Source: Acidimicrobiales bacterium
GTDB taxonomy: Bacteria; Actinomycetota; Acidimicrobiia; Acidimicrobiales; AC-9
Assembly: GCA_036491125.1 (NCBI GenBank)
Contig: DASXCO010000017.1
Coordinates: forward strand, 1-60,105
Length of the DNA: 60,105 bases
Direction: 5' to 3'
In this document: one piece after another, positions 658-57,234 of the stretch
Position numbering within the stretch: position 1 is the first letter of the stretch
Layout of the letters: every line of letters begins with the position of its first letter
Made by a program: the position numbers and the translations under genes
Notes under the pieces: model-generated
Databases searched by the model: none
The model's input: the letters and a program-made list of their open reading frames with translations, nothing else
What the model was told of the DNA's origin: nothing

Positions 658-686
658 CCGACGCAGCACCAGAGACAGTTTGGACA
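658..686 (-). promoter_or_regulatory. Candidate ECF42-type promoter of DGPF gene 1 (TGTCCA-N17-CGTC)
   Basis: On the minus strand TGTCCA (686-681) is followed by 17 nt and CGTCGG (663-658). The motif matches the ECF42 promoter type as I recall it (TGTCGA at -35, CGTC-like at -10). The opposite strand carries the same elements at the same spacing. Confidence 0.6.
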
Positions 687-696
687 CAGGCGGGCC

Positions 697-724
697 TGTC
701 CAAATCCCTGGGTGACCTGCGTCG
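697..724 (+). promoter_or_regulatory. Candidate ECF42-type promoter of DGPF gene 2 and the sigma factor (TGTCCA-N17-CGTCG)
   Basis: TGTCCA at 697-702, 17-nt spacer, CGTCG at 720-724. The two -35 elements form an exact inverted repeat, TTTGGACA (679-686) and TGTCCAAA (697-704), with a 10-nt spacer. This would put the sigma factor gene under its own control. Confidence 0.6.
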
Positions 725-1135: not shown

Positions 1136-2402
1136 CCGACCGCCGTCCGATGGTGACGATCCGACAGCGGCGGTGGTGGCGCGGGCGTTTCGCGACGAGC
1201 GTGCGTCCGTGCTTGCCACTCTCATCCGCCACGTCGGGGACTTTCAGGTCGCGGAGGACGCCGTGCAGGACGCCTTCGCGGCTGCGATCACGGCCTGGCG
1301 CCGCGACGGCGTTCCCAAGAACCCCGGGGCCTGGATCACGGTCACGGCGCGGCGGCGGGCGATCGATCGCCTCCGTCGGGATCGCTCCGTCTCCGATCGG
1401 GCCGAGCGCCTGGCCGAGCTGGTCCGCCTGGATCAACAGGAGCACCCCTCGGTGAGCGAGGAGAGCGCCGTTGTCGACGATCGGCTGCGGCTGATCTTCA
1501 CGTCCTGCCACCCGGCGCTCGATCTCCAGGCCCGGGTGGCGCTGACGCTGCGCACGCTCGGTGGTCTGACGACCGGCGAGATCGGGCGCGCCTTCCTCGT
1601 GTCGGAGCCGACCATGGGAAAGCGAATCGTGCGGGCCAAGCGCAAGATCGCCGATGCGCACATCCCATACCGGGTTCCCTCCGATGCCGACCTGCCCGAC
1701 CGTCTCCTCGGCGTGCTGCGGGTGGCGTACCTGATCTTCAACGAGGGCTATTCGGCCAGCGAGGGCGATCGTCTGGTACGAGGTGAGCTGTGCAGCGAGG
1801 CGATCCGACTCGGCCAGCTCCTGTCCCAGCTGATGCCCGACGAGGCTGAGGTGTGGGGGCTGCTGGCGCTGATGCTGCTTCACGACGCGCGTCGCGCGAC
1901 ACGGGTCGACGACCAGGGACGCTACGTCACCCTCGACGAGCAGGACCGCTCGGCTTGGGACCGGCAGCAGATCGACGATGGCCTCCAGGCGCTCGCGCAC
2001 GCGGCACGGTTGCGGCGGCCGGGTGAGTATCAGCTGCAGGCCGCCATCACCGCTCTCCATGTTCGGGGCGCCGACGCCGGCGCGACCGATTGGGAGCAGA
2101 TCGCCGAGCTGTATGGAGCATTGGCGGAGGTCAGACCCTCGCCGGTCGTCGAGCTCAACCGCGCTGCCGCCGTCGGGTTCGCGGCGGGCCCCGAAGCCGG
2201 TCTCGCCCTGCTCCGACCCTTGCTCGGCGACTCCGCGCTCGCGGCCTACCAGCCCATGCACGCCACCCACGCCGACCTGCTCAGGCGCTCCGGCGACCCT
2301 GCCGGCGCGGCGCGTGCCTACGAGAAGGCGATCGCCTTGAGCACCAACGCGGTCGAGCGCGCCGAGCTCGAGCGACGGCTCCGGACGCTTCGGGACGGCT
2401 GA
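1110..2402 (+). CDS. ECF42-like RNA polymerase sigma factor with C-terminal TPR-type extension
   Basis: At 430 residues this is about twice the length of a simple ECF sigma factor. Residues about 30-95 are the sigma-2 region (F-Q-V-A-E-D-A-V-Q-D-A-F), about 130-190 the sigma-4 helix-turn-helix (T-T-G-E-I-G-R-A-F-L-V-S-E), and the rest is a helical extension with L-N-R-A-A-A-V and Y-E-K-A-I-A-L repeats like TPR units. This layout with adjacent DGPF genes defines ECF42. In that group the extension is reported to be needed for activity, and no anti-sigma factor is expected; none is seen. The start overlaps the DGPF gene by 26 nt; a GTG further in is possible. Confidence 0.88.
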   Translation: MSTRSPLPDRPPSDGDDPTAAVVARAFRDERASVLATLIRHVGDFQVAEDAVQDAFAAAITAWRRDGVPKNPGAWITVTARRRAIDRLRRDRSVSDRAERLAELVRLDQQEHPSVSEESAVVDDRLRLIFTSCHPALDLQARVALTLRTLGGLTTGEIGRAFLVSEPTMGKRIVRAKRKIADAHIPYRVPSDADLPDRLLGVLRVAYLIFNEGYSASEGDRLVRGELCSEAIRLGQLLSQLMPDEAEVWGLLALMLLHDARRATRVDDQGRYVTLDEQDRSAWDRQQIDDGLQALAHAARLRRPGEYQLQAAITALHVRGADAGATDWEQIAELYGALAEVRPSPVVELNRAAAVGFAAGPEAGLALLRPLLGDSALAAYQPMHATHADLLRRSGDPAGAARAYEKAIALSTNAVERAELERRLRTLRDG

Positions 2403-2411
2403 GTTTTCTTC

Positions 2412-2440
2412 TTGACATCGAACATACGTTCGGGTAGCGT
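2412..2440 (+). promoter_or_regulatory. SOS-controlled promoter: -35 TTGACA, LexA box, -10 TAGCGT
   Basis: TTGACA (2412-2417) and TAGCGT (2435-2440) are separated by exactly 17 nt. The spacer holds TCGAAC-ATAC-GTTCGG (2418-2433), one base away from the actinobacterial LexA site TCGAAC-N4-GTTCGA. LexA bound here would occlude RNA polymerase. Transcription would start about 80 nt before the HNH gene. Confidence 0.8.
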
Positions 2441-2529
2441 GAGCGGTGCCTTCGTGGGCGAGGCAGTCACCGCCCTCCTCTGATCAGCCGAGCGCGCCCA
2501 CAGTGCGCGCCCCACGAGCGAGGAGTGGC

Positions 2530-3660
2530 ATGCCCGAGAGCCCCACGGTGGCGAGCCGGGCCCTGCGGGAGGCGCTGAGGGGCCTGCAGCCCGAGGCGTT
2601 CACCGGCGACGACTGCGCCGCCATGGCCGAGGACCTGGCCCGCACCGAGAAGACCTGCGCCGCGGCCAGGGCCCGCCTGGCCGCCCGGGCGGCCGAGGCC
2701 GGGGCCCATCGCCGGCGGGGCTACGCCAATCCCGTGGAGTGGCTGGCCCGCACCGCCGGCTCCAGCGCCGGCCAGGCCCGCGCCGCCCTGGGCACCGCCG
2801 GTGCCGTCGAGGACTGTCCGGCGACCAAGGAGGCGGTGGTGACAGGCGAGCTGTCGCTTGCCCAGGCCGAGGAGATCACCAGGACCGAGGCGGCCTGTCC
2901 GGGGACCGAGGCCGAGCTGGTGGCCCTGGCCAAGGCCTCGAGCCTGGCGGTGCTGCGCGACAACGCCCGCAGCCGCCGCCTCGGGGCCACCGACGCCGAG
3001 GGCCTGCACGCCGCCCAGCAGGCCGCCCGGGAGGTCCGGGCCTGGCGCGACGACCTCGGCATGGTGCGCCTGGCCGGCGCCCTTCCCCCAACCGTGGGAA
3101 TTCCCCTCGTCAATCGCCTGGAGGCCGAGACCGACCGCATCCACACCACGGCCCGGACAGCGGGGGCCACCGAGCCCCGCGCCGCGCACGCCGCCGACGC
3201 CCTGGTGGCCCTGCTGGCGGGAAAGGCCAGGGCAACCACCCAGGCCGACCTGGTCGTGGTCTGGCAGCGCCCGGGCGACGGCGGGGAGGGGACGGCCCAC
3301 CTCCTGGGCGGGGGCCCGGTCCCGGTGGGTGTAGCCAGGCGCCTGGCCGAGCGGGCCTTCGTGAAGACCCTGATCCACGACGGGGTGCGCATCGAGACGG
3401 TCAAGCACTTCGGGCGCCACATCCCCGCCGAGCTGCGCACCGCCCTCGACCTCGGTGGTCCCCCCGACTTCGACGGGGTCATCTGTGTGGACTGCGGCAC
3501 GCGCCACCACATCCAGTACGACCACGTCGACCCGGTCGCCAACGGAGGCCCCACCACCCGGGCCAACCTGAGCGGCAGGTGCTGGGACTGCCACGAGCTC
3601 AAGACCGAGCGGGACCGCCAGGCGGGACTGCTGGGCGGCAACGGGAGGGAGCCGCCGTGA
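2530..3660 (+). CDS. DUF222 / HNH endonuclease domain protein (13E12 repeat type)
   Basis: A 376-residue protein with an alpha-helical DUF222 region over roughly residues 20-270 and a C-terminal HNH nuclease module near 318-360: C-V-D-C, then Q-Y-D-H-V-D-P at about 329-334, N-G-G, and C-W-D-C-H. The two Cys pairs would bind zinc and the His residues form the beta-beta-alpha metal site. These proteins are abundant and repetitive in actinobacteria and have no settled role; DNA cleavage is inferred. ATG at 2530 is chosen for AGGAG at 2521-2525. The LexA-box promoter upstream agrees with reports that several mycobacterial 13E12 genes belong to the SOS regulon. Confidence 0.87.
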   Translation: MPESPTVASRALREALRGLQPEAFTGDDCAAMAEDLARTEKTCAAARARLAARAAEAGAHRRRGYANPVEWLARTAGSSAGQARAALGTAGAVEDCPATKEAVVTGELSLAQAEEITRTEAACPGTEAELVALAKASSLAVLRDNARSRRLGATDAEGLHAAQQAAREVRAWRDDLGMVRLAGALPPTVGIPLVNRLEAETDRIHTTARTAGATEPRAAHAADALVALLAGKARATTQADLVVVWQRPGDGGEGTAHLLGGGPVPVGVARRLAERAFVKTLIHDGVRIETVKHFGRHIPAELRTALDLGGPPDFDGVICVDCGTRHHIQYDHVDPVANGGPTTRANLSGRCWDCHELKTERDRQAGLLGGNGREPP

Positions 3661-3674
3661 GCGGGGAGGCGGCC

Positions 3675-53784: not shown

Positions 53785-56700
53785 TCAACGAAAATCCCGT
53801 GACGGGGTCGACGAGCCGACGATGAGCGACAGAGGGGAGATGCGGTCGGCGACCACGTTGACGACCCCTTCGACACGCTCCAGGCGGCCACGGACGAGCA
53901 GGGCGGGCGCCGACCGGGCCGCCTGGCGGTAACGGCTCCAGGCGCCTTTCGAGCAGACGACGTTGATGAGACCGGTCTCGTCCTCCAGGTTCAAGAAGGT
54001 CGTGCCCCCGGCCGTCGCCGGGCGTTGGCGGTGGGTGACCACGCCGCCGACCAGGACCCGGCTGTCGGGCTCGGCACGGGCGAGCCCCGCTGCCGTCGTC
54101 GCGCCCCACGCGTCGAGCTGGTCGCGGACGAGCTCGATGGGATCGCCGGTGGGTGACATCCCCGTGGCCCACAGGTCGGCGGCCATCTCCTCCGCCGTCG
54201 TCATGTCGGGCAGGGCGGGAGCCCGGGCTCCGACCACCACCCCATCAAGGCGATCGGGGGTGGCCTGAGACACGGCCCCCGCGGCCCACAGCCCCTCCCG
54301 GCGCGTTCGATCGGGGAGGGCACCCGCAGTCGCCAACGCCTCCAGCTGCGCCCGGGACACGCCCGTGCGCCGCACCAGGTCCTCCATGTCGGCATAGGGC
54401 CGGCCGGCGGCGATGCGCTCCGCCATCTCCAGCCCGATGGTGCGCACGTACTCGAGACCGAGCCGCACGGCCGGTCGATCCGGCTCGACAGCAAGCCGCT
54501 CCGTCCCCAAGCCCGCCTCCCGGGCCGGCTCCAACGTGGCCTGGGCCGGGCTGGCGTTGACATCGGCCCGCCGCACCTCCACGCCGTGGCGGCGGGCGTC
54601 GGCCACCAACGTCTTGGGCGACCAGAAGCCCATGGGCTGGGCATTGAGCAAGGCGGCACAAAAGGCTGCCGGAAAGTGGTGCTTGATCCACGCGCTGGCA
54701 TAGACCAGGTAGGCGAAGGACACCGAGTGGCTCTCGGGGAAGCCGAAGTTGGCGAAGGCGGCCAGCTTCTCGTAGATGGCGTCGGCGACGTCTCCGGTGA
54801 TGCCCCGCGCCGCCATCCCCTCGTAGAGTCGGGCCCGCAGCCGTTCCATGCGCTCGCCGGAGCGCTTCGAGCCCATGGCCTGGCGCAGCTGGTCCGACTC
54901 GGCGCCGGTGAAACCGGCCACGTCGATGGCCATCTGCATGAGCTGCTCCTGGAACAGGGGCACCCCGAGGGTCTTCTCCAACGACGGCTCGAGCAGCGGA
55001 TGCAGGTAGGTCGCCGGCTCGAGCCCGTTGCGCCGGCGGATATAGGGATGAACCGATCCACCCTGGATGGGACCCGGCCTGATGAGGGCCACCTCCACCA
55101 CGAGGTCGTAGAAGTGGCGGGGCTTGAGCCTGGGCAGGGTGGCCATCTGGGCCCGACTCTCGACCTGGAAGACACCCACGGTGTCGGCCCGGCACAGCAT
55201 GTCGTAGACCGCGTCCTCCTGGGGGAGCTCGGCCAGGTCGACCTCCACCCCGTGGTGGTCGCGGACCAGGTCGATGGCCCGGTGGATGGCGTTGAGCATC
55301 CCCAGACCCAGCAGGTCGAACTTCACCAGGCCGACGGCGGCGCAGTCGTCCTTGTCCCACTGCAGGACGCTGCGGCCTTCCATGCGCGCCCATTCCACCG
55401 GGCACACCTCGACCACGGGCCGGTCGCAGATGACCATGCCGCCCGAGTGGATGCCGAGGTGGCGGGGGAAGTTCTCCACCTGAGCAGCCAGCCCCATGAC
55501 CGGCTCGGGGATGTCGTGGGCCGACCGGCCGTCCGGACCCACGGCGCCGGCCGTGGCCTCGAGTGGACCCCACCGTTCGATCTGCTTGGACCAGGCGTCC
55601 AGCTGGCCGGACGCGTGGCCAAGGGCCTTGCCCATGTCGCGCACGGCCGAGCGGGCCCGGTAGGTGATGACGTTGGCGACCTGGGCGGCGTTGTGGCGGC
55701 CGTAGCGCTCGTACACGTGCTGGATGGCCTCCTCGCGCCGATCGCTCTCGATGTCGATGTCGATGTCCGGAGGACCGTCGCGTTCGGGGGAGAGGAAGCG
55801 CTCGAACAGCAGGCCCAGCGAGACGGCGTCGGCGTTGGTGATGCCGAGGGCGTAGCAGACCGCCGAGTTGGCAGCCGACCCCCGCCCTTGACAGAGGATG
55901 CCCCGCCGCCGGCAGAACTCCACGATGTCCCACACCACGAGGAAGTAGCCGGGAAAACCCAGCCCCTCGATGACCGACAGCTCGCGATCCAGCTGCGCGT
56001 AGGCACCCGGCACCCGCTCGGCGCCCCGAGGACCGTAACGACGCGCCGCTCCCCGCTCGGTCAGCTCGACCAGCCAGCTCATCTCGGAATGACCCGGCGG
56101 CACCGGGAAGTCGGGCAATCGGGGGGCGACCAGCCGCAGGTCGAACGCGCACTCCCTTCCCAGCTCGGCGGCCCGCTCCACCACGCCGGGATAGCGGGCG
56201 AACCGCCGGGCCTGCTCCCTCCCCGAGCGCAGGTGGGCGCCGGCTGCCGCCGGCAGCCATCCCTCGATCTCGTCCAGCGATCGCCGGGCCCGCACCGCAG
56301 CCAGGGCGGTGGCCAGACCCCGCCGGGCGGGGGTGGCGTAGTGCACATTGTTGGTGGCGATCAGCTCCACGCCGTGGGCCAGGGCCAGGTTGGCCAGGGC
56401 GTCGTTGCGGGCGGTGTCCAGCGGGTCGCCGTGGTCCCACAGCTCCACCGCCAGGTTGCCGCGGCCAAAGGCGTCTGCCAGCCGACCCAGGGCCCGCCCC
56501 GCCGCCGTGGGGCCCGATTGGACCAGCGCCGTCGGGACCTCACCTTTGCGACAGCCGGTGAGCACCATCCAGTGATCCCCGTGGGCCTCGGCCAGGGTGG
56601 TCAGGGACACGATCGGCTGGCCCTTCTCCCCCCCGGCCAGGTGGGCCTCGCTGACGACCCGGCACAGCCGGGCGTACCCCTCGGGGTCGCGGGCCAGCAC

Positions 56701-57234
56701 GACGAGATGGTGGCCCTCGGGATCGGCGGCGGCCTGGCGGTGGCCCATGGTGCCGGCGGGACCAGGACGGCGGCCCTTGGGTCGTCCCCCGGTCTGCGGT
56801 GCTGGTCGAGCCAGGTCGAGGGTGAGCTCGGTCCCGAAGACGGCGGGCACACCGAGCGCCTCGGCGGCCTCGGCGAAGCGGACCACCCCGTACATGCCGT
56901 CGTGATCGGTGAGGGCCAGCGCCTCCAGGCCGAGCCGGTCGGCCTCCTCGACCAGCTCCTCGGGGTGCGACGCTCCGTCCAGGAAGCTGAAGTTCGAGTG
57001 GCAGTGCAGCTCGGCGTAGGGAATCGGGGCGTCGCTCCGCCGCCGCTTCGCGCCGGTGGCACTACTTCCGGGGCCGGCCTCCCGGGACGGCTGCGGGGGG
57101 TGGTAGGGCTGGCGCTTGCGGGACCAGGCCGGGCTGTCGCCTCCGTCGGCGTGGTCCGGGCGGTTGGGCGGCCGGCCGTCGGACAACCGGCGCTCGAGCT
57201 CGGACCAGGGGATCGGAGGGTTGCGCCAACCCAT
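53785..57234 (-). CDS. dnaE2: Error-prone DNA polymerase III alpha subunit (ImuC)
   Basis: 1149 residues. PHP domain at the N-terminus (A-E-L-H-C-H-S-N-F-S-F-L-D-G-A, L-T-D-H-D-G-M-Y-G), the C-family palm with the acidic triad region P-D-I-D-I-D-I-E and G-R-G-S-A-A-N-S, tandem HhH and a C-terminal OB domain (V-L-V-G-G-V-V-T-H-R-Q-R-P). The short size and lack of the tau/epsilon-binding tail set DnaE2 apart from DnaE1. It does translesion, mutagenic synthesis with ImuA/ImuB, neither of which is in this window. A perfect LexA box precedes it. TAGGGT 6 nt before the ATG implies a leaderless mRNA. Confidence 0.95.
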   Translation of the reverse strand: MGWRNPPIPWSELERRLSDGRPPNRPDHADGGDSPAWSRKRQPYHPPQPSREAGPGSSATGAKRRRSDAPIPYAELHCHSNFSFLDGASHPEELVEEADRLGLEALALTDHDGMYGVVRFAEAAEALGVPAVFGTELTLDLARPAPQTGGRPKGRRPGPAGTMGHRQAAADPEGHHLVVLARDPEGYARLCRVVSEAHLAGGEKGQPIVSLTTLAEAHGDHWMVLTGCRKGEVPTALVQSGPTAAGRALGRLADAFGRGNLAVELWDHGDPLDTARNDALANLALAHGVELIATNNVHYATPARRGLATALAAVRARRSLDEIEGWLPAAAGAHLRSGREQARRFARYPGVVERAAELGRECAFDLRLVAPRLPDFPVPPGHSEMSWLVELTERGAARRYGPRGAERVPGAYAQLDRELSVIEGLGFPGYFLVVWDIVEFCRRRGILCQGRGSAANSAVCYALGITNADAVSLGLLFERFLSPERDGPPDIDIDIESDRREEAIQHVYERYGRHNAAQVANVITYRARSAVRDMGKALGHASGQLDAWSKQIERWGPLEATAGAVGPDGRSAHDIPEPVMGLAAQVENFPRHLGIHSGGMVICDRPVVEVCPVEWARMEGRSVLQWDKDDCAAVGLVKFDLLGLGMLNAIHRAIDLVRDHHGVEVDLAELPQEDAVYDMLCRADTVGVFQVESRAQMATLPRLKPRHFYDLVVEVALIRPGPIQGGSVHPYIRRRNGLEPATYLHPLLEPSLEKTLGVPLFQEQLMQMAIDVAGFTGAESDQLRQAMGSKRSGERMERLRARLYEGMAARGITGDVADAIYEKLAAFANFGFPESHSVSFAYLVYASAWIKHHFPAAFCAALLNAQPMGFWSPKTLVADARRHGVEVRRADVNASPAQATLEPAREAGLGTERLAVEPDRPAVRLGLEYVRTIGLEMAERIAAGRPYADMEDLVRRTGVSRAQLEALATAGALPDRTRREGLWAAGAVSQATPDRLDGVVVGARAPALPDMTTAEEMAADLWATGMSPTGDPIELVRDQLDAWGATTAAGLARAEPDSRVLVGGVVTHRQRPATAGGTTFLNLEDETGLINVVCSKGAWSRYRQAARSAPALLVRGRLERVEGVVNVVADRISPLSLIVGSSTPSRDFR

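Follow-up and report, generated by a model that had tools for sequence, protein, structure and literature searches.

ECF42 is, to our knowledge, a widespread and poorly understood group of sigma factors for which no signals are known. Described systems with DGPF/YCII neighbours include S. meliloti RpoE10, Pseudomonas putida ECF-10 and the Streptomyces venezuelae proteins Sven_0747, Sven_4377 and Sven_7131. Like these, the locus considered here encodes a sigma factor with sigma-2 and sigma-4 domains and a long C-terminal extension, has a YCII/DGPF gene upstream in the same operon, lacks an anti-sigma gene, and carries a TGTC-type -35 element separated by 17 nt from a CGWC -10 element (PMC8999054, PMC6180224). 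The extension has been described as TPR-rich (PMC8999054), and the mapped promoter of RpoE10 reads TGTCGG-N17-CGTC (PMC6180224).

The window (the whole stretch of DNA analysed, 60,105 nucleotides of an Acidimicrobiales contig) encodes a sigma factor of 430 aa at 1110-2402 on the forward strand. Sigma70_r2, Sigma70_r4_2 and DUF6596 all score above their Pfam cut-offs, so that regions 2 and 4 are present without region 3, and DUF6596 (130 bits, residues 198-299) lies in a C-terminal extension of roughly 200 residues. These domains bear out the ECF42 assignment made in a preliminary description of the sequence. The sigma ORF is overlapped by a DGPF/YCII-family gene of 120 aa on the same strand (773-1135; Pfam YCII, 60.3 bits). 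No anti-sigma gene adjoins the sigma gene, its neighbours being this YCII gene and an HNH repeat. The own-operon promoter of ECF42 sigma factors is classically the TGTCGA form, which is absent at 697-723; the promoter found there fits the wider TGTCSA-N17-CGWC. On the other side of the intergenic region lies a gene of 94 aa on the reverse strand (312-596), which is preceded by the ribosome-binding site AGGAGG and only just exceeds the Pfam YCII cut-off (25.3 bits against 24). Its product has GAPDTVLGGY at the place of the DGPF(x)TKE signature and is predicted to be YCII-like, not DGPF. Consequently, of the two DGPF genes originally proposed to flank the promoters, the right one stands while the left belongs to the YCII family without the DGPF signature.

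Between these genes, TGTCCA-N17-CGTC occurs on both strands, facing outward. The leftward copy (660-686, reverse strand) has its -35 box at 681-686 and its -10 CGTC at 660-663, in an extended TGCTGCGTC context, and the rightward copy (697-723, forward strand) has the corresponding elements at 697-702 and 720-723. The two -35 boxes with their AA extensions make up a 26-bp inverted repeat, TTTGGACA-N10-TGTCCAAA (679-704), whose perfect 8-bp arms (679-686 and 697-704) flank a 10-bp centre corresponding to the gap between the -35 boxes. Motifs, 17-nt spacers, orientation and inverted repeat were thereby all confirmed as first described. The symmetry stops exactly at the edges of the promoter consensus TGTCCAAA and carries no information independent of it.

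By itself the loose pattern TGTCCA-N16..18-CGTC is weak evidence, being mildly unusual in a GC-rich window of 60 kb: a shuffled window would be expected to hold 0.74 matches, and two or more were present in 17 of 100 shuffles. Better discrimination comes from a weight matrix derived from 22 ECF42-locus promoters, all in other genomes, which themselves score 19.8-32.1 bits. The rightward and leftward sites reach 30.0 and 24.8 bits, respectively, while the next site in the 60 kb reaches 15.4 and the highest score across 40 Markov shuffles was 17.4. A chance origin of both sites is therefore very unlikely, and the claim of two ECF42-type promoters holds. With a 9-nt offset borrowed from the mapped S. 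meliloti RpoE10 promoter (PMC6180224), transcription is predicted to start at about 651 (reverse) and 732 (forward), 81 bp apart.

The reading favoured here, to which a probability of about 0.85 is assigned, is an autoregulated ECF42 module with two outward promoters in which the C at -35 position 5 is due to Lys171 of the sigma factor. Sequence analysis itself shows the motifs, the specificity of the regulon and the residue-base association described below. The sigma factor would direct RNA polymerase to both promoters, which are almost certainly read, to judge from their sequence, by the protein encoded beside them. From the rightward promoter it would express its own operon, DGPF gene and sigma gene together, in positive autoregulation; that this promoter also reads into the overlapping sigma gene, as previously suggested, is supported. 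From the leftward promoter it would express the small YCII-family gene, and a further site upstream of an MFS transporter gene in the same genome would complete the probable regulon. The -35 element would be TGTCCA and not TGTCGA on account of Lys in place of Gln at position 171 of sigma-4.2, the Lys side chain probably contacting the template-strand guanine that pairs with C5. The palindrome would then be a by-product of setting two consensus -35 boxes 10 bp apart. Autoregulation is not universal in ECF42, because overexpression of S. meliloti RpoE10 failed to increase expression of the YCII-rpoE10 operon to which it belongs, despite a matching motif there (PMC6180224).

Relatives of the sigma factor are encoded at 37 loci. 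The closest (70-79% identity) sit at DGPF loci in Thermoleophilia and Streptosporangiales-type actinobacteria, and further relatives of 74-79% identity occur in the class of genome G380. Most close relatives have a DGPF-sigma operon with one promoter, TGTCCAAAT...GCGTC, 60-83 nt 5' of the DGPF coding region. A strict search for TGTCCAAA-N15-CGTC in 21 relatives' genomes (147 Mb) returned 16 matches, against two for a reversed control pattern in the same 147 Mb. Fifteen of the 16 fall within an ECF42 locus, and the sixteenth precedes SnoaL-like and alpha/beta hydrolase genes, the same kinds of gene as at ECF42 loci; each regulon is thus very small and local. Other promoter targets are SDR, RibD-like and MFS genes, the MFS gene with its ECF42-type promoter directly following the sigma gene at L008 and L168. 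An alpha/beta hydrolase gene and a SnoaL-like gene also recur together at ten ECF42 loci (L002, L007, L010, L011, L012, L013, L015, L016, L022 and L027), many with their own copies of the promoter, which hints at the function of the regulon. In the source genome, a third strict site (L100; G000:C45:4112-4138) precedes a DHA2-like MFS gene by 52 nt.

Divergent ECF42-type promoters recur at other loci, with gaps of 8 bp (L011, L015 and L016), 30 bp (L074), 52 bp (L010), 97 bp (L013) and 100 bp (L005), and with differing partner genes. L011 and L015 belong to Catenulispora-type MAGs and have a hydrolase as the left gene, while at L016 (Trebonia) the left half is weak. The source genome itself holds a second divergent pair at L074 (G000:C181:64500-73500), where TGTCGA boxes at 3096 (reverse) and 3127 (forward) are flanked by a RibD-like gene and by a further DGPF-sigma operon, whose sigma factor has Gln at position 171. 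A strict TGTCCA twin was found only in the source genome among 397 genomes of the phylum searched; a relaxed scan showed that this strict pattern overlooks TGTCCG twins. The novelty at first claimed for the back-to-back layout is consequently supported only in part. As to the conservation proposed as a check, the result is divided: relatives share the rightward promoter with its spacing, but not the strict twin. Sequence comparison presents the pair as two ordinary ECF42 promoters, arranged in a way that recurs elsewhere but is unusually tight here.

The C at position 5 had likewise been regarded as a novelty. Close relatives normally have it too, and the sigma factor predicts it through Lys171 (codon AAG, 1620-1622, forward strand), which lies in the sigma-4.2 recognition helix TMGKRIVRAK. 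In a first comparison of sigma factors, C promoters went with Lys at residue 171 and G promoters with Gln. For a broader survey, 226 ECF42 sigma factors were HMM-aligned and the regions upstream of YCII genes were searched without fixing bases 5 and 6. Among the resulting 87 distinct promoters, Lys171 or Arg171 goes with C in 24 of 24 (Lys-C 19, Arg-C 5) and Gln171 or Ala171 with G in 63 of 63 (Gln-G 58, Ala-G 5), with no exceptions. Loci fetched after the rule was first seen (L192-L291) contributed 34 Gln-G and five Ala-G pairs to this free-base run, and an earlier, stricter run over the same loci gave one Lys-C case (L195). Knowing residue 171 removes all uncertainty about base 5 (0.850 of 0.850 bits of mutual information; the runner-up column gives 0.398). 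In a phylogeny from which the helix was left out, nine changes are counted for the residue and nine for the base, and the independent pairs on supported branches are concordant in five of five cases, giving a sign-test p of 0.06 from the pairs alone. Among 18 ECF42 loci in plasmid records the promoter was readable in 14, with -35 boxes picked by eye from printed matches, and all 14 fit the rule: Gln-G in Cyanobacteria and in Alpha-, Beta- and Gammaproteobacteria, Ala-G in Rhodococcus, and Lys-C in Paraburkholderia. Across about 100 related promoters, residue 171 predicts base 5 without exception, and C at this position would be general in ECF42 sigma factors with Lys171 or Arg171. The one-residue, one-base rule for ECF42 is apparently undescribed in the literature searched, although priority is not certain.

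Base 6 is best matched by residue 170, more weakly, with Ala or Gly accompanied by A in 78 of 81 cases and Arg by C in two of two; Glu170 accompanies G at three rhizobial or roseobacterial loci. A two-residue extension of the code thus appears in the alignments. At L182, L183, L302, L304, L305 and L309, residue 170 seems to set base 6 (Arg-C, Glu-G), in few cases.

Structures of SigW and sigma-E show that the helix residues aligned with ECF42 170 and 171 contact -35 bases, with K170 of SigW extending to the guanine that lies across from C-31 on the template strand (PMC6713349). The same holds for R170 in C. glutamicum sigma-D (PMC11588781). The reading of a template guanine by a basic residue is hence an established principle, whereas its ECF42 form, which involves residue 171 and base 5, is apparently undescribed in the literature searched. 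By simple alignment, ECF42 residue 171 falls one position after SigW K170 and sigma-D R170, the known readers of the fifth -35 base; because of this displacement, we infer the exact Lys171 contact. A search by sequence found no solved ECF42-like structure.

Shared ancestry might also produce the association between residue 171 and base 5, since the Lys-C cases cluster in one large clade. Such an origin is very improbable given nine separate switches with no discordant case, a lead of twofold over the next alignment column, the appearance of Lys/C in Betaproteobacteria and of Gln/G in Cyanobacteria and Alphaproteobacteria, and the position of the residue in the recognition helix. The palindrome could in turn serve a dimeric regulator, repressor or activator, as its operator, with the promoter-like halves incidental, and its perfect 8-bp arms and 10-bp centre do resemble operators of dimeric regulators. 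Yet the symmetry ends right where the promoter consensus ends, relatives' loci carry the -35 half as a single copy, properly spaced from a CGTC, and the sigma factor is the only regulator encoded by an adjoining gene. In 22 genomes, moreover, a relaxed form of the palindrome occurs twice, here and at L011 (Catenulispora), both ECF42 promoter twins. No palindrome independent of promoters was found in these 22 genomes, and a separate dimeric operator was rejected; the element is therefore best read as two -35 boxes, the operator being the most improbable of the alternatives.

It is highly unlikely that only the rightward promoter is real and the leftward match a chance neighbour. The left gene and its promoter are lineage-specific: conservation of the gene does not extend to the ECF42 loci of relatives, and homologues of it in the 17 genomes of the class scanned have no ECF42-type promoter. 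The loose pattern, moreover, is not rare. Against this, the leftward score lies within the training range and above all 40 shuffles, the site includes the extended -10 context and has a ribosome-binding site and a YCII gene after it, and other ECF42 loci repeatedly show a second, divergent promoter. Accepting both promoters, polymerase at one might hinder or exclude the other, so that the shared -35 region would act as a switch coupling the YCII gene to sigma autoregulation. With starts some 81 bp apart (offset from PMC6180224), the geometry would bring either -35 box into the upstream region contacted by polymerase at the other promoter, and pairs with an 8-bp gap exist at L011, L015 and, more weakly, L016. 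L011 and L015 are of common ancestry, however, and other divergent ECF42 loci have gaps of 30-100 bp just as well, which shows that the promoters need not be close. In phage lambda, the back-to-back divergent promoters PR and PRM, with starts 82 bp apart, tolerate co-occupancy. Interference at this start distance is thus possible but not certain, and a switch is unlikely though conceivable. Its combination with the two-residue code, in which residues 171 and 170 would insulate paralogues through bases 5 and 6 while the twin would act as a mutual-exclusion switch between sigma autoregulation and the divergent YCII gene, is similarly unlikely. The autoregulated module with two ordinary promoters remains the preferred reading, and it is in this sense that we infer transcription from both.

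The origin of the module is suggested by its relatives. The sigma factor is 79% identical to Thermoleophilia proteins and at most 59% identical to those of its own order, and acquisition of the module by horizontal transfer is therefore probable. An HNH-endonuclease gene repeat (2411-3670), which we take to resemble the REP13E12-type mobile repeats of actinobacteria, starts within about 9 bp after the sigma gene. The genome has eight or more copies of it, full or partial and 95-99% identical, including on contigs C141, C144, C196, C122, C45, C173 and C55, often at contig ends. Because a multi-copy repeat directly follows the sigma gene, its true downstream neighbour is uncertain. On C45, the L100 promoter begins about 30 bp after a partial copy, so that the MFS gene, too, starts shortly after that copy; the repeat appears to separate the sigma gene from its original MFS neighbour. 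The window begins at a contig end, and the contig may be chimeric at the sigma-module end, beside the repeat. As for contamination of the contig, the dnaE gene (53785-57234) is 93-96% identical to that of the same genus, so the right part of the contig is native.

The explanation of C5 by Lys171 is of more interest than the layout. A one-residue, one-base rule would make ECF42 regulons predictable from sequence and separate the targets of paralogues within one genome, as in the source genome, which holds both Lys and Gln types. It could also serve in designing orthogonal switches, AAG to CAG being a single-base change. Tiny local regulons of hydrolase, SnoaL-like, SDR, RibD-like and MFS genes, in turn, narrow the possible roles of DGPF proteins.

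Among known systems, phage lambda PR/PRM likewise has two outward promoters with starts about 80 bp apart; here, in contrast, both are predicted to serve the same alternative sigma factor, with no known repressor site. Compared with the described ECF42 systems, the present one has C for G at -35 position 5, Lys171 for Gln, and a second, divergent promoter 10 bp away that would drive a YCII gene without the DGPF motif. With B. subtilis SigW K170 and C. glutamicum sigma-D R170 it shares a basic residue of the sigma-4.2 helix and a template guanine opposite a -35 C (PMC6713349, PMC11588781). Unlike in those proteins, base 5 covaries in ECF42 with residue 171, the counterpart of SigW T171 and sigma-E S172 in the alignment, while residue 170 tracks base 6.
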